Shown here: piece after piece, positions 7,096-43,427 of the stretch
How the letters are laid out: every line of letters starts with the position of its first letter
Position numbering within the stretch: position 1 is the stretch's first letter
Virus record (IMG/VR): IMGVR_UViG_3300046006_004189
Coordinates: 1-43,449 of that record
Origin: a virus
Reading direction: 5' to 3' (one strand)
DNA: 43,449 nucleotides
Made by a program: the position numbers and the translations under genes
The notes under the pieces: model-generated
Database searches by the model: none
What the model was told of the DNA's origin: nothing
What the model saw: the letters and a program-made list of their open reading frames with translations, nothing else

Positions 7096-7629
7096 ATGGC
7101 TATAACAAAATTTAGAGATGTTTATGATTTCTTAAGTAGTTTTTATGTTTCAGATGTTCTGTATGATGGAATTTTATATAGAAGTTCAGAATCAGCTTAT
7201 CAAGCTCAAAAGACATTGGATATAGAAGAAAGAAAGTTTTTTGCAAATAGAAGTGCTGATGCATCTAAATTTGAGGGAAGACAGTTGGATATTAGAGAGG
7301 ATTGGGAAGATGTTAAGCTGAAATATATGTATGAAATTGTAAAAGCTAAATTTACTCAAAATGAAAGTTTAAAAAGAATGTTATTAAATACTAAATATGA
7401 AACTTTAATTGAGATTAATTGGTGGCATGATAATTTTTACGGAAACTGTAACTGTATTAAATGTCAAAATGAATTTGGACATAATCACTTGGGTGAAATA
7501 TTAATGAAAGTAAGATCTGAAATAAGAAAATCAGAAAAAGATAAACCTCGTATTTTAGGAATAGATTTAGCATCAGATCAATGGGGTAGAGGTTTATATC
7601 AATGTACATCAATAAAAAAGGAGAAATAA
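7096..7629 (+). CDS. NADAR (YbiA-like) family protein
   Basis: 177 aa. FRDVYDFLSSFYVSDVLYDG, SSESAYQAQKT, RSADASKFEGR, DWEDVKLKYMYEIVKAKF, and WWHDNFYGNC with NHLGEILMKVR are the ordered motifs of the NADAR/YbiA fold. Family members hydrolyse N-glycosidic bonds, including ADP-ribose removal from guanine in DarT-type systems. A C-terminal tail from about residue 147 (PRILGIDLASDQWG) lies beyond the usual domain. RBS AAAAGGAGAAG. Near a second NADAR-like gene (8593) and the CCA enzyme. Confidence 0.88.
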   Translation: MAITKFRDVYDFLSSFYVSDVLYDGILYRSSESAYQAQKTLDIEERKFFANRSADASKFEGRQLDIREDWEDVKLKYMYEIVKAKFTQNESLKRMLLNTKYETLIEINWWHDNFYGNCNCIKCQNEFGHNHLGEILMKVRSEIRKSEKDKPRILGIDLASDQWGRGLYQCTSIKKEK

Positions 7630-22025: not shown

Positions 22026-22472
22026 ATGAACAAACAAATGAAAGTATGTGCCAGTGTTGCTGATGTTTTTGTTGATAAAAATATAATTGGTAAAACATTA
22101 ATCTCTTGCAACTTTGGTTATGATCCTTTAAATGCAATTTTTGATAATATTAGAGTTGATTTAATAAATGGAACACAAGAATGTGAAGATTTAAAAGAAA
22201 AAGAAATTTTATTGTTTATTCCTGTTTTTTGTTATAAAATTTCAGAAAATAATAGATTGGAATTTAATAAGATAAATGGATTTTATAAAATAACTGGTGT
22301 TGTAGATAATATATTTGGACAATCTAATACATCAAAAGATATTACTGTAAAAAATTCTTTAATTAAATATATAAATTTTACTAAAAATACTAACTTAGAT
22401 AAATTTCCAAACAGTCATATAGTGGAAGTAGTAAATAAATTAACAAAACAAAAAGGAGTATGTATAATATGA
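22026..22472 (+). CDS. Hypothetical protein
   Basis: 148 aa, starts 1 nt after the previous stop (RBS GAGGAG inside the preceding gene) and ends inside the LigA start region. Mixed alpha/beta composition and no motif. The tight coupling to ligA suggests co-expression only. Confidence 0.75.
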   Translation: MNKQMKVCASVADVFVDKNIIGKTLISCNFGYDPLNAIFDNIRVDLINGTQECEDLKEKEILLFIPVFCYKISENNRLEFNKINGFYKITGVVDNIFGQSNTSKDITVKNSLIKYINFTKNTNLDKFPNSHIVEVVNKLTKQKGVCII

Positions 22473-24442
22473 ATAAAATTGAAAGAATAAAAGAATTAAC
22501 AAAAGAATTACAACAGCATTGTTTAGCTTATTATAAATATGATAAACCTATAATATCTGACAGAGAATATGATAAACTATATGATGAACTTGAAACATTA
22601 GAGCAAGAAACTGGATTTATTTTAAATAATTCTCCTACTCAAAAGGTTCAAGGTGAGGTATTAGATAAATTAACTAAAGTTGCACATACAACAGAAATGC
22701 TTTCTGCAAAAAAGACAAAAGATATAAATGAGATTATTAGTTTTGCTAATGATAAGGTAGTTGTAAATTCTTTTAAACTTGATGGATTAACTATTGTTGT
22801 AAAATATAAAGATGGTAAATTTTATCAAGCTATTACTAGAGGGTCAGGAACACTTGGAGAAGACATTACTCATAATATGCAATTCTGTATATCACTTCCA
22901 AAACAAATTGAACATAAAGGGTATTTAGAGTTACGTGGAGAAGGTGTTATTAGTTGGTCAAATTTTAATTTAATTAATAATGAATTAACTGTTGATGAAC
23001 AATATGCTCATCCAAGAAATCTTGCATCTGGAAGTGTTAGACAATTAAACTCAAATATATTTAAAGATAGGTTAGTTGATTTTGTTGCCTTTAATATAGT
23101 TGAATGTGATATTAATTTTAAACTTAAACAAGAACAATTATTTTGGTTAATTAATCAAGGATTTAAAGTAGTTGATTATGTTATTGGTGATTCTCAAACT
23201 ATAGAAGATATTTTTAACAGAAAGTTAGTAAGAGAAAACTATGAGTTTCCAACAGATGGTAGAATTGTAGAATATGATGATTTAGATTATTCAAAATCAC
23301 TTGGAGCAACAAGTCATCATTGTAATAATTTAATGGCTTTTAAAGATACAGATGACACTGTAGAGACAAAGTTTTTAGGAATAGATGTAAAGACTAGCAG
23401 AAATGGAATAGTGTCTTTAACTGCTATTTTTGAACCTTGTACACTTGATAACACTGTAATTGAAAGAGCATCTGTTCATAATGTTGATATTTTTGAATCA
23501 TATGAATTTGGTGTAGGAGATATTATTACTATTTATAAGGCTAATTCAATAATTCCCCAAATCAGTGAAAATTTAACAAAAAGTGGAACATATCAATTAC
23601 CAACACATTGTCCATCTTGTGGAGAAGAATTAGTTATAGAGAGACCAAATAAAACAAGAGTTTTATGCTGTAGAAATGAAGAATGCCCATCTAAAATATT
23701 AGGTCAATTTGTTCATTTTGTAGGAAAAAATGGTGCAAACATAGATGGTTTATCTGAAGCAACATTAGAAGTGTTTTTAAAAAAGGGTTGGGTCAAAACT
23801 TTTAAAGATTTATTTTACTTAGATAGATTTAAATCTCAAATTATTAATACAGATGGTTTTGGAGAAAGAAGTTATTCTAAATTAATAGAGTCAATTGAAA
23901 ACTCAAGAAATATAAAGTTAGAAAATTATTTAGTTTCATTAGGTATCCCTAACATAGGAAGAACAGCAAGTAAAACAATAAGTAAATATTTTAATGGAGG
24001 TTATTATAAATTTATTCAAAGTTGTGAAGATGGATTTGATTTTACAACATTAGATGATTTTGGAACAACAATGAATGATAGTATTAAAAATTGGTATAAA
24101 CAAAATGGTTTAGATTATAATTTATGGACAGAATTTAAATTTATAATAGAAGAAAAATCTGAAGAACCAATTGATGATAATATTTTCAAAGGAAAAACAT
24201 TTTGTGTTACTGGAAGTTTTTCAATTGGAAGTAGAGATTATATAAAAGAACTTGTTGAAAAAATGGGTGGAAAATTTGTATCTTCTGTTTCAAAGAAAAC
24301 TGATATGTTGTTAATGGGTCAGAAAGCAGGGAGTAAACATCAAAAAGCTTTAGATTGTGGTGTAAGAATTATTGAAGAGGAAGAGTTTGTTGAAATATTT
24401 GCAACAGAATGGCTAAATCAATTTTTAAATAGACAGAGGTAA
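22469..24442 (+). CDS. ligA: NAD+-dependent DNA ligase
   Basis: About 657 aa from ATG 22469. ATG 22460 is only 1 nt from GGAG, so the later one is preferred. Domain Ia helix (YYKYDKPIISDREYDKLY) binds the NMN moiety. Adenylation motif FKLDG (K103); TRGSGTLGEDIT; OB region; four-Cys zinc finger (CPSCGEEL, then CCRNEECPSK); HhH region (GIPNIGRTASKTI); C-terminal BRCT (GKTFCVTGSFS to about 650). It seals nicks using NAD+ and releases NMN, tying replication to the NAD genes at 32398-42918. Confidence 0.95.
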   Translation: MNKIERIKELTKELQQHCLAYYKYDKPIISDREYDKLYDELETLEQETGFILNNSPTQKVQGEVLDKLTKVAHTTEMLSAKKTKDINEIISFANDKVVVNSFKLDGLTIVVKYKDGKFYQAITRGSGTLGEDITHNMQFCISLPKQIEHKGYLELRGEGVISWSNFNLINNELTVDEQYAHPRNLASGSVRQLNSNIFKDRLVDFVAFNIVECDINFKLKQEQLFWLINQGFKVVDYVIGDSQTIEDIFNRKLVRENYEFPTDGRIVEYDDLDYSKSLGATSHHCNNLMAFKDTDDTVETKFLGIDVKTSRNGIVSLTAIFEPCTLDNTVIERASVHNVDIFESYEFGVGDIITIYKANSIIPQISENLTKSGTYQLPTHCPSCGEELVIERPNKTRVLCCRNEECPSKILGQFVHFVGKNGANIDGLSEATLEVFLKKGWVKTFKDLFYLDRFKSQIINTDGFGERSYSKLIESIENSRNIKLENYLVSLGIPNIGRTASKTISKYFNGGYYKFIQSCEDGFDFTTLDDFGTTMNDSIKNWYKQNGLDYNLWTEFKFIIEEKSEEPIDDNIFKGKTFCVTGSFSIGSRDYIKELVEKMGGKFVSSVSKKTDMLLMGQKAGSKHQKALDCGVRIIEEEEFVEIFATEWLNQFLNRQR

Positions 24443-28118: not shown

Positions 28119-28147
28119 TTGACAAATTAAATAAAGTATGTTATACT
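28119..28147 (+). promoter_or_regulatory. Sigma-70-type promoter, extended -10
   Basis: TTGACA (28119-28124), 17 bp, TATACT (28142-28147) after GTATGT. Drives 28184-33814, including dcm and the nicotinamidase gene. Confidence 0.87.
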
Positions 28148-32397: not shown

Positions 32398-32949
32398 ATG
32401 AAAAAAAACAAGATACTTATTTGTATAGACTTACAAGAAGACTTTTTCACTGGAAGTCTTAAGAACCAAATGGCAATAGATATTATTCCCAATATAATTG
32501 ACAAAATCAAGGATGCAAAAGATAATAAACAAAGCATTATGTTTACACTAGATACTCATAGTGAGAATTATTTAAAAACTCAAGAGGGCAAGAATCTTCC
32601 AATTTCTCATTGTATAGAGGGAACACCTGGTCATCAAATTATTAGTCAAATTAGAAAAAGTGTTAGTCTTAGTGAAGATTGGTCATTTGAAAAAAATACT
32701 TTTGGAAGTTTAGATTTAGCTAATTATTTAACTGGAATTAATACTATTACACCTATTGATGAAATAGAACTTATAGGGGTAGTGTCTTCAATATGTGTTG
32801 TAAGTAATGCTTTGTTAATTAAAGCACATATGCCTGAAGTAAAAATAACAGTAGATGCAAGTTGTTGTGCAGGACTAAGTGAAGAGGATCAAAAAGCAGC
32901 AATGATTGTAATGAAAATGTGTCAAATAAATATTATAAATAATTATTAA
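32398..32949 (+). CDS. pncA: Nicotinamidase / isochorismatase-family hydrolase
   Basis: 183 aa. ICIDLQEDF (D11), WSFEKNTFGS (K99) and VVSSICVVSNA (C133) form the Asp-Lys-Cys catalytic triad. TLDTHSE with SHCIEG supplies metal ligands D52, H54 and H71, typical of nicotinamidases. It would hydrolyse nicotinamide to nicotinic acid, the entry step of the Preiss-Handler route, followed by the NAPRT at 34560. Pattern alone cannot exclude another amidase substrate, but the neighbours support this one. RBS AGAGGAG. Confidence 0.85.
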   Translation: MKKNKILICIDLQEDFFTGSLKNQMAIDIIPNIIDKIKDAKDNKQSIMFTLDTHSENYLKTQEGKNLPISHCIEGTPGHQIISQIRKSVSLSEDWSFEKNTFGSLDLANYLTGINTITPIDEIELIGVVSSICVVSNALLIKAHMPEVKITVDASCCAGLSEEDQKAAMIVMKMCQINIINNY

Positions 32950-32971
32950 TAAAAGAATAAGGAGAAATAAA

Positions 32972-33814
32972 ATGAATGTAAATAAATTTAAAATTGGAGA
33001 TAAGGTTAAGGTAATAGATAATATTGAAGTAGAGACAAAAATATATGGAGATATATATTTTGTATCAGATATGGAACAATACAAATCTAAAACATTAACA
33101 ATAGTAGATATAGCTAAAGATTGGGTTGGTGATGAATTTTATAGGATCAAAGAAGATGATCAAAGATGGTTTTGGGATGATACTATGATTGAATTAGTTG
33201 AAAAAAGTATTAAACTAGGTGATAAAGTAAAATGTATAAATAGTTCAAATTGTGGATTAATATATGAAGATAGAATTTATACTGTAAGTTTAATATCCTC
33301 TGAATTAGATGCAATTAAATTAGAAGAGATAGATATTGACTACTATTATTGTATTGAAGATTTTGAGTTAGTAGATGATTATGAGGGAAAAACTACAAAT
33401 TGTCTTGATGTAATATTGGATAAATTAGGTATAGAATTAGAAGAAGAGTTTGAAGTTAAAACTTTATATGGCAATAATTGGGAAAAATTTAAGATGAAAG
33501 AAAATGGTTTATGTTATAGTAATGGTGGTAGAGATAGTGTAGAGTTTGCAAATTTATTAACTGGGCAAACTGAATACAGAAAAATCAAACCAATTCCACA
33601 ACCTTCAGCAGAGGAACAAAAGGTTTTAGATGCTGCTAAGGTATTAGGATATAATTGGGTTTCAAAAGATGAAAATGGTAAATGTTTCTTTTATGTAATT
33701 AAACCTACTAAAATCCTTGATATGTGGAGTAGTGCTAATGGTAATCATTCAGAATCAATGTTTGACTTTAAATTTCTAAATTGGAAAGACCAAAACCCAT
33801 ATGAAATTAAGTAA
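32972..33814 (+). CDS. Two-SH3-like-module protein, paralogue of the 26887 gene
   Basis: 280 aa. Modules FKIGDKVKVIDNI and IKLGDKVKCINSS are followed by TTNCLDVILDKLGIELEEEF and a C-terminal domain EEQKVLDAAKVLGYNWVSKD to NWKDQNPYEIK. It is about 20 residues longer than the 26887 paralogue, with an insert near residues 155-190. The second halves of the two genes are also similar in DNA, so they probably duplicated recently. RBS AAGGAG. Confidence 0.78.
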   Translation: MNVNKFKIGDKVKVIDNIEVETKIYGDIYFVSDMEQYKSKTLTIVDIAKDWVGDEFYRIKEDDQRWFWDDTMIELVEKSIKLGDKVKCINSSNCGLIYEDRIYTVSLISSELDAIKLEEIDIDYYYCIEDFELVDDYEGKTTNCLDVILDKLGIELEEEFEVKTLYGNNWEKFKMKENGLCYSNGGRDSVEFANLLTGQTEYRKIKPIPQPSAEEQKVLDAAKVLGYNWVSKDENGKCFFYVIKPTKILDMWSSANGNHSESMFDFKFLNWKDQNPYEIK

Positions 33815-33829
33815 AAAATAATAAGATAG

Positions 33830-33847
33830 ATAAAATCCCAATTTTAT
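33830..33847 (+). promoter_or_regulatory. Intercistronic hairpin
   Basis: ATAAAAT (33830-33836) pairs with ATTTTAT (33841-33847) around CCCA. Recurring class; precedes a strong terminator. Confidence 0.45.
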
Positions 33848-33855
33848 TTGGTGAA

Positions 33856-33913
33856 AAAACACAACATATAGTAGTAGATCATAAATTAAAACACTATATG
33901 TTGTGTTTTGTAT
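33856..33913 (+). terminator. Strong intrinsic terminator
   Basis: A perfect 17-bp inverted repeat: 33856-33872 pairs with 33893-33909 around a 20-nt loop, and a T-rich tract follows. It closes the 28119 unit about 50 nt before the next promoter. Confidence 0.88.
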
Positions 33914-33963
33914 TTTTATCAAATTTTTACTCAAATATTTTAAGAAAATTTTACTAAAAACTA

Positions 33964-33992
33964 TTGACATTTAACTAAAAGTATGCTATACT
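33964..33992 (+). promoter_or_regulatory. Sigma-70-type promoter, extended -10
   Basis: TTGACA (33964-33969), 17 bp, TATACT (33987-33992) in AAAAGTATGCTATACT; the bases after the -10 match those at 26095-26100. Drives the pncB unit. Confidence 0.88.
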
Positions 33993-34027
33993 ATGCTTAC
34001 AAAACAAACAAGAAAGAGAGAGTTTAA

Positions 34028-34549
34028 ATGATTAAAGGTATTTTAAAACAAATAAGACAAATTCTTATTCATAAATGGTATGTATTTGAGATTTGCTGTA
34101 AGTTAGGTATCCCATTACAAGGATTATTCCATGACTTATCTAAGTTTTCTTTTGCTGAGTTAATAGAAGGTTCAAAATATTATAGAGGTGATGTTTCTCC
34201 TCATGTTGAATCTAGAAAACAAATAGGATATTCTTTAGCTTGGATTAATCATAAAGCAAAAAATAAACATCATTGGGAAATGTGGTTAGATATAAATGCA
34301 GATGGAGAATTTATTCCTGCTCCAATGCCAAATAAATACATTAAAGAAATGCTTGCAGATAGAATAAGTGCATGTAAAGCATATGAGGGTAAAAATTGGA
34401 ATCATTCTTCTGCTTTAAACTATTACAATAAAAATAAAGACAAATATATAATGCATGAAGATACTAAAGAAAAAATACTTACTTGCTTAACATTAGTTAA
34501 AGAGCAAAAAGAATTATCATTCAAACAAATTAAAAAAATATTAAAATAG
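34028..34549 (+). CDS. DUF5662-like protein
   Basis: 173 aa. GLFHDLSKFSFAEL and SLAWINHKAKNKHHWEMW are the two His/Asp motifs of DUF5662, a small all-helical phage and bacterial family. PMPNKYIKEMLADRISACKA follows. The repeated His/Asp pairs suggest a metal site, possibly HD-like. First gene of the unit that continues with pncB, 10 nt downstream. Activity is unknown. Confidence 0.75.
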   Translation: MIKGILKQIRQILIHKWYVFEICCKLGIPLQGLFHDLSKFSFAELIEGSKYYRGDVSPHVESRKQIGYSLAWINHKAKNKHHWEMWLDINADGEFIPAPMPNKYIKEMLADRISACKAYEGKNWNHSSALNYYNKNKDKYIMHEDTKEKILTCLTLVKEQKELSFKQIKKILK

Positions 34550-34559
34550 GAGAATTATT

Positions 34560-35975
34560 ATGAATTACAATCTTACAATGCTTACTGACCTTTACCAATT
34601 AACAATGGCCTATGGTTATTTTAAATCAAAAAAACAAAACAATCAAGCAGTATTTGATTTGTTTTATAGAAAGCATCCAGAAAGTCCTTTTGTTGTTGTT
34701 GCTGGAATAGAACAAGCAATCAAATATGTTGAAAGTTTAAAATTTACAACAGAAGATATAGAATATTTAAGAGGACAAAAATTATTTGATGAAGATTTTC
34801 TGAACTTTTTATTAACAATTAGGTTTAATGGAAAGATATATGCTATGGATGAGGGTACTATTGCATTTCCTCATGAACCTATCTTAAGAATAGAAGGAAA
34901 TTTAATAGAAGTTCAACTAATAGAAACAACTCTGTTAAATATAATTAATCATCAAACTTTAATTGCAACAAAAGCTAATAGAATAGTTAGAGCATCCTAC
35001 CCTAATCTTGTTATGGAATTTGGTTTGAGAAGAGCACAAGGTAATGATGCAGGTTTATTTGGTTCTAGAGCGTCTTATATAGGTGGATGTTCAAGTACAA
35101 GCAATGTATTAGCTGGAAAAGAATTTGGTATTCCAATTCAAGGAACACATGCTCATAGTTGGATTATGTCTTTTGAAACAGAATTAAAAGCATTTCAAGT
35201 TTATGCTCATAACTTCCCAAATAATTGTGTTTTACTAGTTGACACTTATGATGTTTTAAATAGTGGTATTCCTAATGCTATAAAAGTGTTTAATGAACTT
35301 AGGGTACAAGGATATAGACCAATAGGAATAAGATTAGATAGTGGAGATTTAGCTTATTTATCTAAGAAGGCAAGGATTATGTTAGATGAGGCTGGTTTCT
35401 CATATACTAAAATATTTGCAACAAATGATTTAGATGAATATACTATCCAAAATTTACAACAGCAAGGTGCTAAAATTGACGTTTATGGTGTAGGTACAAA
35501 ACTAATAACCAGTTATAATGTTCCAGCTTTAGGTGGGGTTTATAAGCTATCTGAACTAGATGGGACACCTAAGATGAAACTTTCTGAGAATATTGAAAAA
35601 ACTACAAATCCTTGTAAGAAAATGGTTTATAGATTGTTTGATAAGATAACTAAAAAAGCAGTTGCTGATTTAATTACATTAGATAATGAAGTAATTGATG
35701 AAAGTAAACCTTTAACAATTTATCATTCAATAGAAACTTACAAGAAATTAGTGCTTGAAAATATTTATGCAATACCTTTATTATCATTATATTATGATCA
35801 AGTTACTTGTAAAGAGTTCCCTAGTTTGATACAAATAAGAACTAATACTAAACAAAATTTAGATGCATTTTGGGAAGAATATTTAAGATTAAATAATCCT
35901 CAAGAATACAAGGTTGACATATCTGATAAACTTTATGATTTGAAGAAAGAACTTATTCATAAGTATAAGGGGTAA
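34560..35975 (+). CDS. pncB: Nicotinate phosphoribosyltransferase
   Basis: 471 aa, typical of the Gram-positive-type NAPRT. LTMLTDLYQLTMAYGY at the N-terminus, EFGLRRAQGNDAG (about 153-165), GTHAHSW (195-201, with the His that is phosphorylated in this family), VDTYDVLNSG, RLDSGDL (258-264) and YGVGTKLITS. It makes nicotinate mononucleotide from nicotinic acid and PRPP with ATP. Together with the nicotinamidase at 32398 and NadE at 40320 it gives the Preiss-Handler core. RBS TAGGAG. Confidence 0.93.
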   Translation: MNYNLTMLTDLYQLTMAYGYFKSKKQNNQAVFDLFYRKHPESPFVVVAGIEQAIKYVESLKFTTEDIEYLRGQKLFDEDFLNFLLTIRFNGKIYAMDEGTIAFPHEPILRIEGNLIEVQLIETTLLNIINHQTLIATKANRIVRASYPNLVMEFGLRRAQGNDAGLFGSRASYIGGCSSTSNVLAGKEFGIPIQGTHAHSWIMSFETELKAFQVYAHNFPNNCVLLVDTYDVLNSGIPNAIKVFNELRVQGYRPIGIRLDSGDLAYLSKKARIMLDEAGFSYTKIFATNDLDEYTIQNLQQQGAKIDVYGVGTKLITSYNVPALGGVYKLSELDGTPKMKLSENIEKTTNPCKKMVYRLFDKITKKAVADLITLDNEVIDESKPLTIYHSIETYKKLVLENIYAIPLLSLYYDQVTCKEFPSLIQIRTNTKQNLDAFWEEYLRLNNPQEYKVDISDKLYDLKKELIHKYKG

Positions 35976-35980
35976 TTAAT

Positions 35981-36175
35981 ATGACAGTAGGACAATTAAA
36001 ATCTAAATTAAAAGATTACCATGATGATTTTGAATTAATTGCAACATATTCATTTATAGATGAAACAAAAAGTGGATATGCTGCATTATGTAGTGAGAAT
36101 TATATAGTTGTAGATCTTGGTGATATAGGATATAGTGATAAAGTAATTTTGCTTGAATTAAAGACAAGGGAATAA
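35981..36175 (+). CDS. Small phage protein, hypothetical
   Basis: 64 aa. The start MTVGQLKSKLKDYHDDFEL resembles a common class of short phage proteins (MTV-x-L-x-x-L-x-x-Y-D). The C-terminus is a beta-strand pair (YIVVDLGDIGYSD). Starts 5 nt after the pncB stop. A hairpin (36172-36189) overlaps its stop. Confidence 0.7.
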   Translation: MTVGQLKSKLKDYHDDFELIATYSFIDETKSGYAALCSENYIVVDLGDIGYSDKVILLELKTRE

Positions 36176-36189
36176 AAGACATATTTTAT
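36172..36189 (+). promoter_or_regulatory. Hairpin overlapping a stop codon
   Basis: ATAAAA (36172-36177) pairs with TTTTAT (36184-36189) around GACATA. It lies between the 35981 gene and the 36238 promoter and could weaken read-through. Confidence 0.4.
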
Positions 36190-36237
36190 CACTTCAACTA
36201 TATTTATAAAAAAAATTATTTATTTTACAAAAAAGTA

Positions 36238-36266
36238 TTGACAAATAAATGAAAGTGTGCTATACT
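36238..36266 (+). promoter_or_regulatory. Sigma-70-type promoter, extended -10
   Basis: TTGACA (36238-36243), 17 bp, TATACT (36261-36266) after GTGTGC. Drives a long unit ending at the 43322 terminator and including nadE, pnuC and nadR. Confidence 0.87.
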
Positions 36267-36294
36267 ATTCCTATAATAACAAAAGGAGATAATT

Positions 36295-36549
36295 ATGGAT
36301 ATAAATTCAAAAACAATAAATGAAGATAATTATGAGGAAATGATATCTTGTTTAATTTGTCATAAAAAACACAGAGAAGATAAATATGAGGAAAAATACA
36401 CTCAATATGTTTGTAATAAGTGTGCAGAAAATTTAAGGAAAAAATATAGATTAATAATGAAAAGTAATTTTAATATAACTGAATTAGAATTTATTCTTGA
36501 AAACTTAGATCTTCATGAGCCACTTTATAAAACATTCAAAATACAATAA
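36295..36549 (+). CDS. Small zinc-ribbon protein
   Basis: 84 aa. CLICHKKH and YVCNKCAENL are two CxxC knuckles about 25 residues apart (a single zinc site), followed by a helix. RBS AAAGGAG. First gene of its promoter unit. Probably nucleic-acid or protein binding; no family recognised. Confidence 0.72.
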   Translation: MDINSKTINEDNYEEMISCLICHKKHREDKYEEKYTQYVCNKCAENLRKKYRLIMKSNFNITELEFILENLDLHEPLYKTFKIQ

Positions 36550-36561
36550 AAGGATATTATT

Positions 36562-36783
36562 ATGAATATAAAAAAATTTGTTAAATTCTGTGAGAAAAAC
36601 AATCACACATTTCTATTAGAAAGCACTTATTGTTGGGGATTGAAATTAAAACACATTCATGATGGTGAATATACTTTTTATAAAACTGATGGAAAATTAA
36701 AACCATTATTGAAAAAAGGAATCAAGTACATTAATGAAAGGGATTTAAATCCCTTGTTAGATGAAGTGAGGAGAAAATTATGA
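36562..36783 (+). CDS. Hypothetical protein
   Basis: 73 aa, RBS AAAGGAT. Basic; contains YCWGLKLKHIHDG. It overlaps the next gene by 4 nt (ATGA). No family recognised. Confidence 0.68.
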   Translation: MNIKKFVKFCEKNNHTFLLESTYCWGLKLKHIHDGEYTFYKTDGKLKPLLKKGIKYINERDLNPLLDEVRRKL

Positions 36784-37097
36784 TAGAGGGAATTACAGTT
36801 TTAAATCAAATTCCAGTTATGGGAGCAAGTACATTGACTGCAATAGGTGTTTTAATAATTATATTTGGATTATTTATTTTAACTGTGTCAGTGCTAGGTG
36901 ATGAAGGCATAGGTATTACAATAAGTATTGTTATAATAATATTTGGATTAATTTTTACAAAAGATAAAGAAATAAAACCTAATCAATATACTTACCAAGT
37001 TACAATCTCAGATACTATTAAGATGAAAGAATTTAATGATAAGTATATTATAATACAGCAAAATGGTCAAATTTACACAATAAAAGAAAGAGAGTAA
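36780..37097 (+). CDS. Small membrane protein (tandem paralogue 1)
   Basis: 105 aa. IEGITVLNQIPVMGAS, then two hydrophobic spans (about 17-38 and 43-61), then a soluble tail YQVTISDTIKMKEFNDKY with GQIYTIKE. The next gene has the same beginning and end. Two-span hairpin topology is likely. This pair resembles a widespread small phage membrane protein. No function known. Confidence 0.75.
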   Translation: MIEGITVLNQIPVMGASTLTAIGVLIIIFGLFILTVSVLGDEGIGITISIVIIIFGLIFTKDKEIKPNQYTYQVTISDTIKMKEFNDKYIIIQQNGQIYTIKERE

Positions 37098-37101
37098 AAT
37101 T

Positions 37102-37383
37102 ATGATAGATGGAATTACAGTTTTAAATCAAATACCTATACAAGAGGTAAATTATATAATAAAATTAGGTGTAACATTATTCATATTAGGATTTGTATCA
37201 TTTATAATATCTGTTTTGGTAATTATTGCAGGTGGATATATCCTTTCAACTGGAAAACCAATAATAACAGGATATAAATATCAAGTTACAATTAGTGACA
37301 CTATTGAATTAACAGATTTTAATCAAAAATATGACATTATTAGTCAAAAAGGTCAAATTTACACAATAAGAGAAAAGGAATAA
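37102..37383 (+). CDS. Small membrane protein (tandem paralogue 2)
   Basis: 93 aa. IDGITVLNQIPIQEVN, a hydrophobic region (about 18-50), then YQVTISDTIELTDFNQKY and GQIYTIRE. Both ends are nearly identical to the preceding protein and the membrane part differs, so it is a tandem duplication whose membrane part has diverged or shortened. Starts 4 nt after the upstream stop. Confidence 0.75.
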   Translation: MIDGITVLNQIPIQEVNYIIKLGVTLFILGFVSFIISVLVIIAGGYILSTGKPIITGYKYQVTISDTIELTDFNQKYDIISQKGQIYTIREKE

Positions 37384-37413
37384 CCAGATAAAATTTAGTT
37401 TTTATCAGATTGG
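37384..37413 (+). promoter_or_regulatory. Intercistronic hairpin (CCAGATAAA class)
   Basis: GATAAAA (37387-37393) pairs with TTTTATC (37400-37406), and CCA (37384-37386) with TGG (37411-37413) after a bulge. It lies on top of the next RBS (TTGGAGA), so it could mask translation of 37421. Confidence 0.5.
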
Positions 37414-37420
37414 AGAAAAT

Positions 37421-37936
37421 ATGGAAAATACACAAATTACAAAGCATAGTATCTTTAAAATTCAAGTTTATAAAAAAACTCATAAGTTTTATATAAATAA
37501 ATCAATGAAGAGTTCTGTAGGATATAACATTTTTTATAATACAGGAATTTATTCTGAGGAAAAATTAATTAAAACAAAAATATTTAAAGAAGTTAATATC
37601 TCTATGCCACTTTTAAATGTGGGTGATAGTTTTTATTTTGAAGATGAAGATAAGGAAATTGTGATACAAGATGTTATTAGAACTGACAAAGATAATGTTT
37701 TATATATTGTAAATAAAGAAATTATTGAGGATAAAGAATCTTTAAAAAATGCTAAGGAAATGCAAAATATATTTACAAATGAATCATTAGAAAAAATTCG
37801 CAAAGCTGATGAATTGAAATTAAGTCATGATGGTTTGAAAAATGCTTATGAAAATTTAAAAACTGAATATGATAACTATAAATCATCTAGTTGGGTAAAT
37901 AAAATATTTGGTAATAATAAAAAGGGACAAATATGA
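37421..37936 (+). CDS. Hypothetical protein with C-terminal coiled coil
   Basis: 171 aa. The N-terminal domain is beta-rich with a GDSFYFEDEDKEIVI strand pair; the C-terminal helix (about 115-155) is charged, with a short basic tail. RBS TTGGAGA. Directly upstream of the tnpB gene. No family recognised. Confidence 0.72.
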   Translation: MENTQITKHSIFKIQVYKKTHKFYINKSMKSSVGYNIFYNTGIYSEEKLIKTKIFKEVNISMPLLNVGDSFYFEDEDKEIVIQDVIRTDKDNVLYIVNKEIIEDKESLKNAKEMQNIFTNESLEKIRKADELKLSHDGLKNAYENLKTEYDNYKSSSWVNKIFGNNKKGQI

Positions 37937-37998
37937 CAGTAGGAGAAAATGATATATTTAATGAAACAATACAGAACAGAAACCCATATTATAAATAA
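37933..37998 (+). pseudogene. Possible remnant start of an interrupted gene (21 codons)
   Basis: ATG 37933, preceded by AAAGGGA, reads MTVGENDIFNETIQNRNP and stops at 37998 inside tnpB in another frame. The first residues resemble other short phage genes starting MTVG (for example 35981). It could be the 5' scrap of a gene cut by the tnpB element, or chance. Confidence 0.25.
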
Positions 37999-39187
37999 AA
38001 ATCATAACTTATATAGTTATTGTGATAATATGTGCTTTAAATCTAAAACCCTTTATAACTATACTAATTATATCATTAGACAAGAATTTATTAATAATAA
38101 GAAAATCATAAGTGCTGTGGATTTAAATAAATCATTAAAAACAGAAGAAGTTTTTCAACAATTCCCATCTAAAACTTCTCAATTGATAATTCTTCAATTA
38201 AGCAATAATTGGAAATCATTTTTCAAAAGTGTTAAAAGATGGAATACAAATAAAAATGGATATTGTGGAATGCCTAAACTACCTAAATATAAAGATAAAA
38301 ATGGAAGAAACATTGTTTTATTTGACTATATGCAAGGAAAATTTAAAGATAATAAATATTATTTTGCAAATAAGATTGTAGATGGAAAAGTTATTCATAT
38401 TGAATATATAGACACAAAAGTAAAAAAAGAAAATTTTGTAATATGTAGAATAGTTCCATATGGTTCTTGTTATAAAATAGAAATGGTATATAAAGTAGAA
38501 ATTGAAGATAAAACTAAATTTAATAATAATTATTTAGCAATTGATTTAGGAATAAATAATCTTGCTACATTAACTAATAACATAGGGTTACAACCTATTG
38601 TTGTAAATGGCAAAATATTAAAGTCAATAAATAATTATTATAATAAATTAATATCACAAGCAAGATCTTATGTTGGTAAAAAAACATCAAAAAGAATACA
38701 AAGAATAGGTCTTAAAAGAAATAATATTATAAATACCCATACACATAAAATAAGCAGATGGATTATTAATTATTGTTTAGAAAATAATATTGAAAACATA
38801 GTCATTGGAAGAAATAAAGATTGGCAGAGAAATAGTAATATAGGAAATAAAAACAATCAAAGTTTTACACAAATACCATTTGAAAGATTAATTGATAAAA
38901 TTAAATACAAAGGACTAGAAAATGGAATAAAAGTAGACATTATAGAAGAACAATACACAAGTAAATCAAGTTTTATAGATAATGATATTTTACCAACAAA
39001 ATTTGGAGATTATAAATTTAGTGGAAATAGGGTAAAAAGAGGATTATATAAATCTAAAGATGGAAAATTAATTAATGCAGATGTAAATGGAAGTTATAAT
39101 ATATTAAGAAAAGGTAATACTGAATTTAAGTATAATGACAGTATAAAGGGTATTTCATTGTACCCAATTAAGATAAATATATCTTAA
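37949..39187 (+). CDS. tnpB: TnpB (IS200/IS605 OrfB) RNA-guided nuclease-like protein, no zinc finger
   Basis: 412 aa. RuvC-I YLAIDLGINNLATL (D199), RuvC-II IIEEQYTSKSSFID (E334), RuvC-III NADVNGSYNILRK (D378) give an intact nuclease triad. The usual CxxC zinc knuckles between RuvC-II and -III are absent; KFGDYKFSGNRVKRGLYKS stands there instead, as in the known zinc-less OrfB branch. TnpB enzymes cut DNA guided by an RNA from the element's right end. No tnpA is nearby. Start uncertain: ATG 37949 or 37961. Confidence 0.88.
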   Translation: MIYLMKQYRTETHIINKNHNLYSYCDNMCFKSKTLYNYTNYIIRQEFINNKKIISAVDLNKSLKTEEVFQQFPSKTSQLIILQLSNNWKSFFKSVKRWNTNKNGYCGMPKLPKYKDKNGRNIVLFDYMQGKFKDNKYYFANKIVDGKVIHIEYIDTKVKKENFVICRIVPYGSCYKIEMVYKVEIEDKTKFNNNYLAIDLGINNLATLTNNIGLQPIVVNGKILKSINNYYNKLISQARSYVGKKTSKRIQRIGLKRNNIINTHTHKISRWIINYCLENNIENIVIGRNKDWQRNSNIGNKNNQSFTQIPFERLIDKIKYKGLENGIKVDIIEEQYTSKSSFIDNDILPTKFGDYKFSGNRVKRGLYKSKDGKLINADVNGSYNILRKGNTEFKYNDSIKGISLYPIKINIS

Positions 39188-39240
39188 TAAAGTTTAAAAA
39201 ACATAATGAAAGATTGATTTTATTGGGGGAAAGGTAAGAG
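39148..39240 (+). ncRNA. Candidate right-end hairpins / omega-RNA region
   Basis: Two hairpins lie at the 3' end of tnpB: GGGTA/TACCC (39148-39152 with 39161-39165) and AAGATA/TATCTT (39170-39175 with 39180-39185). IS605-type elements encode guide RNA across the tnpB end, so this is the place to look for the scaffold and guide. Element boundary and guide are not determined. Confidence 0.3.
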
Positions 39241-39250
39241 GTATATAAAA

Positions 39251-39484
39251 ATGATAATAAGAAGTCAAGATAGAAAGACAATTGTAAATTTTGATAAAAT
39301 TACAGCTTTAAGTTTAATGGGAAAGGACATTTGTGCACATTATAATTCATCTGAAGAATGTTATAACTTAGGCAATTATAAAACAGATGTTGATGCAAGG
39401 AAAGTTTTTGATTATATTCAAAAATGTTATTTAGATGATTGTAAAATTTATGAGATGCCATCATATTATTTTGGCATTGATTAA
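39251..39484 (+). CDS. Small phage protein, hypothetical
   Basis: 77 aa. MIIRSQDRKTIVNFDKITAL and a C-terminal YEMPSYYF, with GNYKTDVDARKVFDYIQ between. This order is familiar from short phage and mobile-element proteins that start MIIRSQDK, of unknown role. RBS GTAAGAGG lies about 9 nt before the ATG. The first gene after tnpB. Confidence 0.72.
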   Translation: MIIRSQDRKTIVNFDKITALSLMGKDICAHYNSSEECYNLGNYKTDVDARKVFDYIQKCYLDDCKIYEMPSYYFGID

Positions 39485-39545
39485 GGAAATAAAGAAAGTA
39501 GTTACTAATGTGAAAACAAAAGTAATAGAGGTTATAGATTTATAG

Positions 39546-39578
39546 CCAGTGCATATATTTTAATATAGCACAAACTGG
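39546..39578 (+). promoter_or_regulatory. Hairpin in the 39485-39648 gap
   Basis: GTGC (39549-39552) pairs with GCAC (39568-39571), TATAT with ATATA inside, and CCA/TGG (39546-39548 with 39576-39578) outside. The 164-nt gap has no ORF; this is the main structure. A CCAGATAAA-class hairpin (39597-39622) follows. Confidence 0.45.
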
Positions 39579-39596
39579 AATTGTTTAACAATAAAA

Positions 39597-39622
39597 CCAG
39601 ATAAATTAATTCTTTTATATGG
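39597..39622 (+). promoter_or_regulatory. Intercistronic hairpin (CCAGATAAA class)
   Basis: CCA (39597-39599) pairs with TGG (39620-39622), and ATAAA (39601-39605) with TTTAT (39614-39618). Same design as at 27674 and 37384. Confidence 0.45.
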
Positions 39623-39648
39623 AATTTAAAATAAGAAAGGTAATACTT

Positions 39649-40065
39649 ATGATTATAAGAATGACTGTTAAAGACAATGATTTTTCTGTATTGTTAGAAC
39701 AATTTGCTGAAAATTTAGTTGTTAATGTATATCCAAAAACACCATCAAAAAGACCAAGTATGTTAGAAGAAATTGATATTCAGAATAGTACAGATTGGTT
39801 TGAAACTTTTTATAGATTAAAAAAGATATTAAATGATGATGATAATGATATACTTAAAAACAAGGATGATTATAACTTTCTTGCAAATTGTATTAAAAAA
39901 TCTTTTGAAAATTTCTTAAATGAAAAAACTAAAAGAACAAATGATACAAAAGAATATTTATTAAAGAACTTTGAAGTAAAATTACAATATCAATTTAAAG
40001 ACAAATGGGAAAATGGTGAAGTTGTTTATTACTTTACTACTAATAATAAGTTTATTTCACAGTAA
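39649..40065 (+). CDS. Hypothetical protein
   Basis: 138 aa from ATG 39649 with RBS AAGAAAGG; the in-frame ATG at 39619 sits in a hairpin and is rejected. Charged, mixed alpha/beta protein with no recognised motif. Precedes a small membrane protein. Confidence 0.7.
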   Translation: MIIRMTVKDNDFSVLLEQFAENLVVNVYPKTPSKRPSMLEEIDIQNSTDWFETFYRLKKILNDDDNDILKNKDDYNFLANCIKKSFENFLNEKTKRTNDTKEYLLKNFEVKLQYQFKDKWENGEVVYYFTTNNKFISQ

Positions 40066-40076
40066 AAGGAGAAAAT

Positions 40077-40307
40077 ATGTTAAATTTTATTTTACCAGTA
40101 ATCACTTGTACAATTGCAGTTCTTATAGCACCATTTATAAAAGACCAAACTACATTAGTTGTAACTTCATTTATAATTGGTCAATTAACAGTAGGTGTTG
40201 TTCTTGCTATTCAAGAGTGGTATTTAAATTATAGAAAAAAACAAATAGATGCAGAACTTGAAATATACAGACAAGAACAAATAAATAAAATTAATAAAGA
40301 AAGATAA
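40077..40307 (+). CDS. Small membrane protein with cytoplasmic coiled coil
   Basis: 76 aa. Two hydrophobic stretches (residues about 2-20 and 27-46) followed by a charged helix (YRKKQIDAELEIYRQEQI). RBS AAAGGAG. Resembles holin-like topology but has no holin signature. Twelve nt before nadE. Role unknown. Confidence 0.7.
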   Translation: MLNFILPVITCTIAVLIAPFIKDQTTLVVTSFIIGQLTVGVVLAIQEWYLNYRKKQIDAELEIYRQEQINKINKER

Positions 40308-40319
40308 GAGGGTAATAAA

Positions 40320-41087
40320 ATGAGTTTTTTATTGGATAGCTTTGATGCTAAAAAAGTTAAAAATAAAATGGTTGAATGGATTAGAAATTGGTTTGATAAA
40401 AATGGAAAAGATGCTAAAGCTATTATTGGAATTTCAGGTGGAAAAGATTCAAGTGTTGTGGCTGCACTTTGTGTTGAGGCTCTTGGAGTAGATAGAGTAT
40501 ATGGTGTTTTAATGCCACAGGGACAACAATCTGATATAGATTATAGTTATGATTTATGCAGATATTTAGATATTAATTTTTCTAAAATAAACATTGGTTT
40601 TGTAGTTGATGAGTTATTACAAACCATATCATCTGACTTATGTCCAGTATTTAGAAAAGATTTAAGTTCTCAAACAAAAATTAACACTCCTGCAAGAATT
40701 AGAATGACAACTTTATATGCAATTGCAGGTACTTTGAATGGAAGAGTAGCAAACACCTGTAACCTAAGCGAGGATTTTGTTGGATTTGCAACCAAATATG
40801 GTGATGGGGCTGGCGATTTCAGTCCATTATCAGAATTAACTGTAAGTGAAGTTAAAGCAATTGGTAGAGAATTAGGATTACCATCTAAATTTGTAGATAA
40901 AACTCCAATTGATGGATTGTGCGGATCAACAGATGAAGAAGCTTTAGGATTTACTTATGATGTATTAGATAAATATATTAGGACAGGTGTTTGTGATAAT
41001 TTAGAAACTATGTCAAAAATTGATATAATGTATATAAAAAATAGACATAAATTAGAAACAATACCTGCTTACAAACTAGGGAAGTAA
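40320..41087 (+). CDS. nadE: NH3-dependent NAD+ synthetase
   Basis: 255 aa, full length for the ammonia-dependent form. GISGGKDSSVVAAL (ATP PP-loop, residues 39-45), GVLMPQGQQSD, NTPARIRMTTLYAIA, NTCNLSEDFVGFATKYGDGAGDFSP and LPSKFVDKTPIDGL in canonical order. It amidates nicotinate adenine dinucleotide to NAD+ using ATP and NH3, with no glutaminase domain. It completes the Preiss-Handler route from the phage NAPRT. RBS AAGAGGG. Followed by pnuC and nadR. Confidence 0.95.
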   Translation: MSFLLDSFDAKKVKNKMVEWIRNWFDKNGKDAKAIIGISGGKDSSVVAALCVEALGVDRVYGVLMPQGQQSDIDYSYDLCRYLDINFSKINIGFVVDELLQTISSDLCPVFRKDLSSQTKINTPARIRMTTLYAIAGTLNGRVANTCNLSEDFVGFATKYGDGAGDFSPLSELTVSEVKAIGRELGLPSKFVDKTPIDGLCGSTDEEALGFTYDVLDKYIRTGVCDNLETMSKIDIMYIKNRHKLETIPAYKLGK

Positions 41088-41129
41088 ATAATATTTTAAT
41101 ATAAAAGAAAGATTAAGAGGAAAATAATT

Positions 41130-41882
41130 ATGTCAAATTTATCAAGTGCAAGAAAAAATTGTGCAGTTTATGATGAGGCTGGTAAGATACCAAAAAAATC
41201 AAAGTTTACACTATTTGAAACAATTCTTATAGTATTAAATATACTTATTGGATTAGGTTTCTTAGTAATGGGTAAAGATTACTCATTAATGCCACTATTA
41301 GGATTTACTGCAAGTGTTAGTAATACACTATGTGTTATACTTGTTGCAAAAAGACAAATTAGTAATTATTGGTGGGGTATTTTAGGCACACTTACTTATG
41401 GTATTGTTGCTTTTAATGCAGCTAATACAGGAGAATGGACTTTAAACTTTCTATATTATTTGCCTATGAATTTTATAGGTTGGTATATGTGGAATAAAAA
41501 TTCAGAAGACAAAAAAGAAGTTAAAAGTAAAAGCTTAAGTTTAAAACAATCTGTTTTAATATTTAGTTTAACTGCTGTTTTAGTTTTTGCATTTGCTTAT
41601 TTAATGGCATTACCACAAGTTCAAATGTTTTTATATGGTGAAGTTTCTACTTTAGGTTTTATAAAATATTTAACAGATAGTCTTTCTACAGTATTATCAA
41701 TTGTTGCTATGATTTTAATGGTTAAATGTTATAGAGAACAATGGATTTTATGGATTGTAGTAAATATTGCAAGTATCATTCTTTGGTGTTTTACTTTTGA
41801 TTTAATGATGATATTACTATGGTCAACACTATTAGTTAATTCAGTTTATGGTTATATTAAGTGGAAAACAGAGGAAGTTTAG
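41130..41882 (+). CDS. pnuC: PnuC-family nicotinamide riboside transporter
   Basis: 250 aa with about seven hydrophobic spans (about 29-48, 52-74, 80-97, 105-121, 141-162, 185-200, 204-240). YWWGILGTLTYGIVAF and NFIGWYMW (WxxW motif, W118 and W121) are PnuC hallmarks. It would import nicotinamide riboside through the host membrane for phosphorylation by the NadR kinase encoded next, which traps it inside the cell. RBS AGAGGA. It ends 1 nt before the nadR start. Confidence 0.92.
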   Translation: MSNLSSARKNCAVYDEAGKIPKKSKFTLFETILIVLNILIGLGFLVMGKDYSLMPLLGFTASVSNTLCVILVAKRQISNYWWGILGTLTYGIVAFNAANTGEWTLNFLYYLPMNFIGWYMWNKNSEDKKEVKSKSLSLKQSVLIFSLTAVLVFAFAYLMALPQVQMFLYGEVSTLGFIKYLTDSLSTVLSIVAMILMVKCYREQWILWIVVNIASIILWCFTFDLMMILLWSTLLVNSVYGYIKWKTEEV

Positions 41883-41883
41883 T

Positions 41884-42918
41884 ATGTATAATATAGGAGT
41901 ATTTCCTGGTAAATTTAGTCCGCCACATAGAGGTCATTTAAATGCTATTTTACAGGCGTCAACTCAATGTGAATTACTATATGTGGTTGTTTCTTTTAAC
42001 CAATGTTTAGAAGAAGAAATGTATAGTAAATGTACTTATAAAATGCCAACAATGAAAAAAAGGGGAAAATGGTTGTCTATTGAATTATCTAATTTTGATC
42101 ATATCAAAGTAGTAATGTTAAATGAAGATAATATTCCTATGTATCCAAATGGGTGGGAAGAATGGAGCAAGACATTAAAAAATCTAATTCCCTATGATAT
42201 TGATGTTATTTTTGGTGGAGAAGAACAGTATGCAGATGAGGGATATACTAAATATTTTCCTCAAACTAAGTATGAAGTTTATGATACTGATAGGACTGAA
42301 TATCCAATTAGTGCTACAGAAATTAGAAATAATCCTTACAAACATTGGGATTATATTTTAGGAAGTGCTAGGACACACTTTGTTAAAAAGGTGTTAATAA
42401 TTGGTACTGAAAGTACAGCTAAAACTACTTTAACTAAAATGTTAGCAAAGATATTTAATACATCTTGGGCAGAAGAAGAGGGTAGATATTACTCTGAAAA
42501 ATACTTAGGTAAAAATGAAGATGTATTTGAATTAGATGATTTTTATAATATTACTTTAAAGCAAAGAGAATTAGAAGATATTGCTGTAAAAAATGCTAAT
42601 AAGATTGTTTTCTTAGATACTGATGCAACTATCACACAATATTATTGTAATATGTATTTAGGAGAAATAAATCCTAAAATAGAAACAATGATAGATCCTA
42701 GTAGATATGATTTAGTATTATATTTAAAACCCGATGTAAAATGGGTAGATGATGGTTTGAGATTCTCTGGAGAGCAAAAACTAAGAGATGAATTAGATGA
42801 AAAATTAATAAATATGTTTTATGATAGAGGGTTTAATAATATCCAAATAATTAGTGGAGATTATCATACTAGATTAAATAAAGCAATAAGCATATGTAAG
42901 GGAGAAATAAATGGATAG
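41884..42918 (+). CDS. nadR: NadR-type NMN adenylyltransferase and ribosylnicotinamide kinase (no HTH)
   Basis: 344 aa from ATG 41884; an upstream in-frame ATG (41848) lies inside pnuC. VFPGKFSPPHRGHL (nucleotidyltransferase motif) and PISATEIRNN (141-150) define the NMNAT domain. Walker A GTESTAKTTL (174-183) starts the kinase domain, with FLDTDAT downstream. The N-terminal repressor HTH of enteric NadR is absent, so it acts only as enzyme. It makes NMN from NR and NAD+ from NMN. It could also adenylate NaMN if specificity is relaxed, since no separate NadD is seen here. Confidence 0.93.
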   Translation: MYNIGVFPGKFSPPHRGHLNAILQASTQCELLYVVVSFNQCLEEEMYSKCTYKMPTMKKRGKWLSIELSNFDHIKVVMLNEDNIPMYPNGWEEWSKTLKNLIPYDIDVIFGGEEQYADEGYTKYFPQTKYEVYDTDRTEYPISATEIRNNPYKHWDYILGSARTHFVKKVLIIGTESTAKTTLTKMLAKIFNTSWAEEEGRYYSEKYLGKNEDVFELDDFYNITLKQRELEDIAVKNANKIVFLDTDATITQYYCNMYLGEINPKIETMIDPSRYDLVLYLKPDVKWVDDGLRFSGEQKLRDELDEKLINMFYDRGFNNIQIISGDYHTRLNKAISICKGEING

Positions 42919-43315
42919 TTTTTTTGATAATAAAATACAATTAGATGTACTTAAAGAACAATATAAAAAGTATGGTAAGTTAGTAGTGGCTTATGATTTT
43001 GATGATACTGTACATCCCTTCAGAGGAACAGATTGTTCAATGGTACAACAATTAATAAGAGATTTGGAACAATACTGTACTTTGATTGTTTTCACAGCAA
43101 GAGATACAACAGATGATAAACAATACAAGTATGTTGAAAATTACTTAATAGAGAACAATATTCCTTTTAATTATATTAATAAGGATTTTGATGGAAGTGA
43201 GATAAAAGGATTTAAGCCACTTTATAATCAGTTTTTAGATGATAAAACTGGACTTTATAGTTCATATATAATCTTAAGATTATTCTTAAATTGGGTAAGA
43301 AAAACAACAAATTAA
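42911..43315 (+). CDS. HAD-superfamily phosphatase-like protein
   Basis: 134 aa. VAYDFDDTVHPF (motif I, DxDxT), FTARDTT (motif II), and C-terminal FLDDKTGL (motif IV) without a cap domain. Similar to the HAD-like protein at 1810. It overlaps nadR by 8 nt, so it may belong to the NAD operon, for example to remove phosphate from nucleotides, but no substrate is evident. RBS GGGAGAAAT within nadR. Confidence 0.85.
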   Translation: MDSFFDNKIQLDVLKEQYKKYGKLVVAYDFDDTVHPFRGTDCSMVQQLIRDLEQYCTLIVFTARDTTDDKQYKYVENYLIENNIPFNYINKDFDGSEIKGFKPLYNQFLDDKTGLYSSYIILRLFLNWVRKTTN

Positions 43316-43321
43316 ATAATA

Positions 43322-43371
43322 AAAAGGTGCAATGAATTTAACTAAAAATCTTCTTTGCACCTTTTGTAAAA
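43322..43371 (+). terminator. Intrinsic terminator closing the NAD operon
   Basis: AAAAGGTGCA (43322-43331) pairs with TGCACCTTTT (43356-43365) over 10 bp around a 24-nt loop, with a T-tract at the stem end. Sits between the HAD gene and the last promoter. Confidence 0.85.
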
Positions 43372-43398: not shown

Positions 43399-43427
43399 TT
43401 GACAAAAATAAAAAAATATGCTATACT
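43399..43427 (+). promoter_or_regulatory. Sigma-70-type promoter, last in window
   Basis: TTGACA (43399-43404), 17 bp, TATACT (43422-43427) after ATATGC. Its genes lie outside the window. Confidence 0.85.

Follow-up and report, generated by a model that had tools for sequence, protein, structure and literature searches.

Two predicted NAD+ routes in a viral genome fragment and their place among nicotinate-routed gene sets of phages and gut Clostridia

Introduction

Why would a virus carry genes both for the synthesis and for the import of nicotinamide adenine dinucleotide (NAD+)? The question is raised by IMG/VR record IMGVR_UViG_3300046006_004189, a complete, linear database entry of 43,449 bases that is probably a genome fragment and is here called the window. 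It encodes a predicted nicotinamidase (PncA), nicotinate phosphoribosyltransferase (NAPRT), NAD+ synthetase (NadE), nicotinamide riboside transporter (PnuC) and NadR. We consider it likely that these genes supply two converging NAD+ routes in one phage, in three units under one promoter type, and that they keep NAD+ available in infection.

Known phage NAD+ restoration, by the NAD+ reconstitution pathways NARP1 and NARP2 or by NadV/NadM/NadR salvage, acts on nicotinamide or on its riboside. In NARP1, Adps and Namat act on nicotinamide (PMC12774641, PMC11559045, PMC13232231). A survey of viral NAD+ and ADP-ribose systems by Iyer et al. (2022) gives NadV, NadM and NadR as phage NAD+-synthesis enzymes (PMC9503650); NadR is shared with the window, and the survey never uses the terms nicotinamidase, PncA, NadE or Preiss-Handler. 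In the literature searched, which did not cover the original NARP paper (Nature 2024), we found no earlier account of phage NAD+ synthesis by way of nicotinate. The window and its relatives indicate that many phages of gut bacteria route through nicotinate instead.

Results

Five NAD+ genes in three transcription units

The NAD+ genes and an adjoining gene of the window are as follows; NaMN is nicotinate mononucleotide, NaAD nicotinate adenine dinucleotide and PRPP phosphoribosyl pyrophosphate.

32398-32949, + strand: PncA, nicotinamidase (nicotinamide to nicotinate), Pfam Isochorismatase E=5.5e-23
34560-35975, + strand: NAPRT (PncB, TIGR01513 type; nicotinate and PRPP to NaMN)
40320-41087, + strand: NadE, NH3-dependent NAD+ synthetase (NaAD to NAD+)
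41130-41882, + strand: PnuC, nicotinamide riboside transporter
41848-42918, + strand: NadR without helix-turn-helix (likely start at an internal ATG at 41884)
42911-43315, + strand: small HAD-like protein (DFDDT motif), overlapping NadR

An earlier note, made by a model from the letters of the window, had named the five enzymes, and all five genes are open reading frames on the + strand whose positions agree with those it gave to within a few codons. Pfam, NCBIfam and PHROGs place them in the isochorismatase/nicotinamidase, NAPRT, NadE, PnuC and NadR families; curated models and relatives of solved structure bear out each identity, and the E-values exclude chance as the source of these predicted assignments. 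NAPRT scores 662.8 bits on the NCBIfam nicotinate phosphoribosyltransferase model (cut-off 469), and its closest structure is E. faecalis NAPRT (E=7e-125). NadE, in which the motif residues SGG.DS and TDE are invariant, scores 171 bits on TIGR00552 (cut-off 63.65), and its PDB matches are NH3-dependent NAD synthetases. The scores of PnuC and NadR are 120.5 bits on TIGR01528 (cut-off 42.45) and 274 bits on PRK08099 (cut-off 201); PnuC is closest to the PnuC structure 4QTN, and solved NadR proteins match NadR.

PncA is the weakest sequence match of the five, with P. horikoshii nicotinamidase as the closest solved relative (E=3.6e-13). The structure-based search that the earlier note had proposed as a check found the nicotinamidase fold: the AlphaFold2 model of PncA has a pLDDT of 90.9 and its four best Foldseek matches in the PDB are nicotinamidases, while the other four proteins match solved proteins of their own families. 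Across the phage relatives D11, D52, H54, H71 and C133 do not vary, and K99 hardly does; from the roles in P. horikoshii PncA we take D52/H54/H71 to be zinc (metal) ligands and D11/K99/C133 to be catalytic. NadR has the domains for adenylylation of nicotinamide mononucleotide (NMN) and for the kinase, and no helix-turn-helix was found in it, in line with the claimed loss of its repressor domain. The adenylyltransferase motifs HxGH and ISATEIR, which fits ISxTxxR, are N-terminal, and the ribosylnicotinamide kinase is C-terminal. The claim of intact catalytic motifs in all five enzymes was slightly too strong, the exception being the kinase P-loop GTESTAKT (G186-TESTA191-K192-T), with Ala191 where relatives carry Gly.

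An extended -10 promoter motif, TTGACA-N14-TGNTATA[AC]T, is repeated through the window. As TTGACA-N14-TGNTATACT it has 13 matches with at most 2 mismatches, against 0.8 expected, and none of 100 shuffles reached 13. Ten clear copies, all on the + strand (447, 4025, 10427, 16368, 17158, 26066, 28119, 33964, 36238 and 43399), fall at or between gene boundaries. Those around the NAD+ genes are:

28119..28147, + strand: promoter copy TTGACA-N14-TGTTATACT, an exact match, opening the unit that includes PncA
33964..33992, + strand: promoter copy preceding DUF5662-NAPRT
36238..36266, + strand: promoter copy opening the unit that ends NadE-PnuC-NadR-HAD
43399..43427, + strand: promoter copy after a hairpin at about 43325-43365, marking where the NadE-PnuC-NadR-HAD unit ends

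The copies at 28119, 33964 and 36238 predict one unit with PncA, one with NAPRT and one with NadE-PnuC-NadR-HAD, the three operons of the earlier note. In the last of these the NadE, PnuC, NadR and small HAD-like genes overlap or are closely spaced, which suggests co-translation. It is possible that the HAD-like protein is a nucleotide phosphatase of the NAD+ pathway. A homologue lies between the phosphoribosyltransferase (PRTase) and NadE genes in phage Phass-1 and in several of the sister operons described below, and small HAD-like proteins recur beside phage NAD+ genes (our loci L003, L047, L051, L061, L099, L114, L117, L124 and L255).

We infer the reactions in the window phage from protein families, catalytic motifs, promoter repeats and gene associations. 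At the level of enzyme families both routes that had been proposed stand, Preiss-Handler synthesis and the import and phosphorylation of nicotinamide riboside. In the Preiss-Handler route, nicotinamide, the product of any NADase, would be deamidated to nicotinate by PncA and joined to PRPP by NAPRT to give NaMN; NaMN would be converted to NaAD by NadR, a host NadD or an unseen phage NadD, and NaAD to NAD+ by NadE. In the riboside route, nicotinamide riboside would be imported by PnuC and phosphorylated, and the resulting NMN adenylylated to NAD+ by NadR. Such a supply would be most useful after NAD+-depleting defences and for the phage's own NAD+-dependent DNA ligase.

Relatives in phages and IMG/VR

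The gene set did not prove to be an isolated find: phage G has a set of its own, NadR-PnuC pairs are common, and nicotinate-routed operons are widespread in IMG/VR. Named phage records contain NadR (426) and PnuC (375) and, more rarely, NadE (46), NAPRT (31) and PncA (7). Listeria, Staphylococcus and Enterococcus "phage" matches with bacterial-looking NAPRT or NadE were excluded, since they probably stem from host DNA within phage assemblies. Bacillus phage G encodes gp275 isochorismatase, gp277 NAPRT, gp281 NadD and gp283 NadE within 6 kb, a complete Preiss-Handler set by family. The NAD+ cluster of this phage also contains KptA, an NAD+-consuming RNA 2'-phosphotransferase (L002, 10036-10596).

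Single-sequence scans of IMG/VR with NAPRT, NadE and NadR gave no matches, and alignment queries were needed; these found at least 354 relatives of PncA and at least 494 of NadE. Homologues of PncA, NAPRT and NadE recur as neighbours across unrelated phages. Among the matches listed there are two main neighbourhoods: form I, PncA-Prs-PRTase-NadE, is the majority, and form II is PncA-NAPRT-adenylyltransferase-NadE. PncA, NAPRT, NadD and NadE are contiguous in L013, and PncA and NAPRT occur together in L006. The order NadE-PnuC-NadR of the window is joined to the form-I genes PncA-Prs-PRTase in L084 and L088, L104 has PRTase-NadE-PnuC-NadR, and form-II locus L107 combines NadR-PnuC with PncA-NAPRT-adenylyltransferase-NadE. 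The window is a form-II variant, and its NadE and PncA are placed among both forms in trees. By homology and gene order, the window set belongs, as one variant, to a widespread class of putatively nicotinate-routed NAD+ operons in phages and gut Clostridia. This class of viral and bacterial gene sets, with hundreds of relatives, is apparently new to the literature.

The NaMN adenylation step

The 43-kb fragment encodes a single PF01467 protein, NadR, and the PF01467 scan of this possibly incomplete record found no NadD. The earlier note had pointed to the missing NaMN adenylation and had named NadR or the host as suppliers; the gap and both suppliers stand, to which a gene outside the fragment has to be added as a third candidate. 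A PF01467 adenylyltransferase is present in all 19 NAPRT-type viral records examined, in counts that rest on Pfam PF01467 only, our own NadD hidden Markov model being contaminated by the NadD-NadE open frame of L013. In several of these records the protein is NadR- or NadM-like and adjoins NAPRT, so in them this fold probably acts on NaMN. The adenylyltransferases of L089 and L010 match best the NadR adenylyltransferase domain without kinase, that of L062 archaeal NadM and that of L013 NadD; L107 encodes a full NadR and also, between NAPRT and NadE, a separate short adenylyltransferase. NadR is a credible candidate for the NaMN step of the window; host NadD, or a phage NadD beyond the fragment, is at least as possible.

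A Namat-like phosphoribosyltransferase in the sister form

In both sequence and fold the form-I PRTase lies nearest to NARP1 Namat, not to Nampt (Foldseek top matches 9W5X/9W5W). In SPbetaL1 Namat, Asp215 hydrogen-bonds nicotinamide (PMC12774641). Stand-alone PRTases keep Asp or Glu at position 215 in 90 of 90 cases, namely 10/10 named phages and 80/80 IMG/VR loci (71 Asp, 9 Glu), and neither PncA nor NadE was found within 6 kb in any of these 80 loci. In the 76 distinct PRTases of PncA- or NadE-linked viral operons, position 215 is Ala (57) or Ser (19). A PF01467 protein is encoded in 5 of 30 form-I records and in all 19 form-II records (Fisher p=2.3e-9, descriptive). Since the form-I PRTases group as a single clade (local support 0.87 when the deep-branching Phass-1 is included), the events counted in these two comparisons are not independent. 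If the form-I enzyme made NaMN, an adenylyltransferase would be needed as in form II, whereas none would be needed if it made NaAD directly.

The core residues F189, R192, R306 and R399 of the form-I PRTase are kept wherever the sequence covers them. Its clamp helix has the Namat-like aromatic at position 3 in nearly all sequences, a few lacking it, and mostly carries an insertion before TRD; with this insertion, the use of ADP-ribose pyrophosphate (ADPR-PP) is something that we infer. Form-I Prs shares 34-49% identity with the Prs-like partner gene of stand-alone PRTases (182/182 match, median 179 bits), and the best solved PRPP synthetase scores 70.8 bits against the one form-I Prs tested. 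As a separate observation, nine NARP1-type PRTases have Glu for the nicotinamide-binding Asp (L332, L333 and L337-L342, seven of these eight or all, and L358).

On balance we favour the view that NARP1 has a nicotinate version in the main branch, PncA-Adps-like-Namat-like (Asp215 to Ala/Ser)-NadE, and that the NAPRT branch, to which the window belongs, reaches the same end via NaMN. In this version nicotinamide would be deamidated and ADP-ribose activated to ADPR-PP. Nicotinate would then be joined to ADPR-PP, giving NaAD directly (a nicotinate ADP-ribose transferase), and NaAD would be amidated to NAD+. NADase products would be fully recycled, and neither an adenylyltransferase nor PRPP would be required. 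As far as we found in the literature searched, a nicotinate ADP-ribose transferase activity has not been described. If the proposal is true, it adds a new reaction and a new NAD+ salvage pathway in phages and gut Clostridia, and offers a natural experiment in PRTase substrate change. It predicts that a Namat homologue without the nicotinamide-binding Asp, encoded between a nicotinamidase and an NAD synthetase, makes NaAD from ADP-ribose and nicotinate.

Copies in bacterial assemblies

Genome assemblies of Lachnospiraceae, Ruminococcus and their relatives contain the four-gene form I as well, with exactly PncA-Prs-PRTase-NadE in 64 of 80 loci and Ala at position 215 of the PRTase in all 80. These copies look chromosomal from their sequence context. 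The Konateibacter massiliensis operon sits among iron-transport, histidine-kinase and EamA genes, and that of Pseudoruminococcus ends in a glutamine-dependent NadE. PncA-Prs-PRTase(Ala215)-NadE in L283, L242, L281 and other loci on gut Clostridia chromosomes is a possible, as yet undescribed bacterial NAD+ salvage route.

Other genes of the window

22460-24442, + strand: NAD+-dependent DNA ligase (family assignment)
13486-15945, + strand: ribonucleotide reductase with TSCPD domain (family assignment)
7096-7629, + strand: NADAR-domain protein (Pfam E=4.9e-23)
37949-39187, + strand: TnpB/OrfB (IS605 family, TNB domain), between NAPRT and NadE
6031-7083, + strand: RlaP-type RNA-repair nucleotidyltransferase
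9060-10430, + strand: CCA-adding/poly(A)-polymerase-like protein

NADAR is an ADP-ribose-related family reported in phages, and the protein of the window is possibly tied to NAD+ conflict. TnpB/OrfB at 37949-39187 has no obvious TnpA beside it and may have split formerly adjoining NAD+ genes. The RlaP-type and CCA-adding-like proteins suggest tRNA repair, though no tRNA genes were found in the fragment. The open reading frame at 1491-1838 (+ strand) resembles by eye a nucleoside deoxyribosyltransferase (TIR-DrHyd-SLOG class) and has no Pfam match.

Discussion

Our preferred reading, two converging routes that keep NAD+ available in infection, presupposes that the window is viral and that its PncA is a nicotinamidase. 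A bacterial or plasmid fragment misfiled as viral would account for the failure to identify capsid, portal, tail or terminase genes among the proteins scanned and for the lack of a nucleotide-level match to the window among phage records, and sister operons do exist on chromosomes. IMG/VR classes the record as viral, however, its small genes are packed on one strand with a repeated phage-like promoter, and phage-type ribonucleotide reductase, LigA, RNase H, dUTPase and DNA polymerase exonuclease families are found in it, so that we regard misfiling as very improbable. We give equally little credence to the 32398 enzyme being another amidase of the isochorismatase superfamily. Its score on the curated equivalog model for nicotinamidases is only 15.7 bits (cut-off 174), and its fold is common to other amidases; yet its best sequence and structure matches are nicotinamidases, its zinc-ligand and catalytic positions are kept, and its homologues repeatedly adjoin NAPRT, Namat-like PRTase and NadE genes.

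Several points weigh against the two-route reading. As seen in the fragment, the Preiss-Handler route is incomplete, with NadR as its only predicted adenylyltransferase of the PF01467 family, and characterised NadR enzymes are specific for NMN over NaMN. Ala191 in the P-loop could weaken the NadR kinase, and the sister operons on bacterial chromosomes make a general metabolic use possible. We think it somewhat more likely than not that NadR serves the riboside route only and that NaMN is converted to NaAD by a NadD of the host, or of the phage but encoded beyond the fragment. Nearly all bacteria have NadD, and the two proteins of L107, a full NadR and a separate short adenylyltransferase, fit such a division of labour, as does NadR being alone of its family here. 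Against it, every one of the 19 NAPRT-type viral records brings an adenylyltransferase, with no apparent reliance on the host, and the NadR- or NadM-like proteins beside NAPRT probably act on NaMN. This alternative affects a single step and can hold together with the remainder of the explanation we prefer.

The purpose of the genes is a separate matter. Restoring NAD+ to counter NADases is an established phage strategy (PMC12774641, PMC11559045, PMC13232231), and by analogy it is plausible that the window phage rebuilds NAD+ after NADase defences; we count its own NAD+-dependent DNA ligase and its NADAR protein in favour of the preferred reading. Ordinary metabolic support of a large phage, with NAD+ for DNA ligase and redox chemistry and no counter-defence role, seems to us less probable but deserves serious consideration. 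The phage's own ribonucleotide reductase and NAD+-dependent ligase speak for it, as do the chromosomal sister operons in Clostridia. On the other side, the Preiss-Handler route begins with nicotinamide, which NADases release, the related NARP1 pair is proven counter-defence (PMC12774641, PMC11559045), and the window also encodes a NADAR protein. One purpose does not rule out the other, and a pathway common to phages and gut bacteria allows both. We rejected the idea that the whole set is a phage-specific counter-defence, since the four-gene sister operon is also found among ordinary chromosomal genes.

Set beside known systems, the window has PncA, NAPRT and NadE of the Preiss-Handler pathway (PncA, NAPRT/PncB, NadD, NadE) with catalytic residues kept; it differs in being virus-borne, in having its genes over three phage units and in having no NadD in the fragment. 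The phage G cluster is likewise phage-encoded and has the same route and NAPRT type (52% identity), whereas its PncA and NadE are distant (about 29-33% identity) and it includes NadD; NadR-PnuC was not found in the 20-kb stretch of phage G examined. Adjoining pnuC and nadR genes, the latter without helix-turn-helix, are shared with the salvage genes of T5-like and other phages, but in the window the pair shares a unit with NadE and is accompanied by a Preiss-Handler arm. NARP2 (NAMPT and NMNAT) resembles the window in having an NMN adenylyltransferase, here NadR, and nicotinamide as ultimate substrate; the window would deamidate nicotinamide first, and NAMPT was not found in it. With NARP1 (Adps and Namat; SPbeta-like phages, ICP1, Bas62/63 and others) the window would share the rebuilding of NAD+ from NADase products during infection. 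The window is predicted to use PRPP and nicotinate, not ADPR-PP and nicotinamide; its PRTase is NAPRT, and neither the Prs-like Adps nor a Namat-like PRTase had a match in it. The closest relatives of its PncA and NadE nevertheless lie in operons with an Adps/Namat-like pair. The difference from NARP1 and NARP2 that the earlier note had drawn is therefore upheld, but the distance from NARP1 is smaller than it implied, since the commonest sister operon, PncA-Prs-PRTase-NadE, has a Namat-like PRTase.

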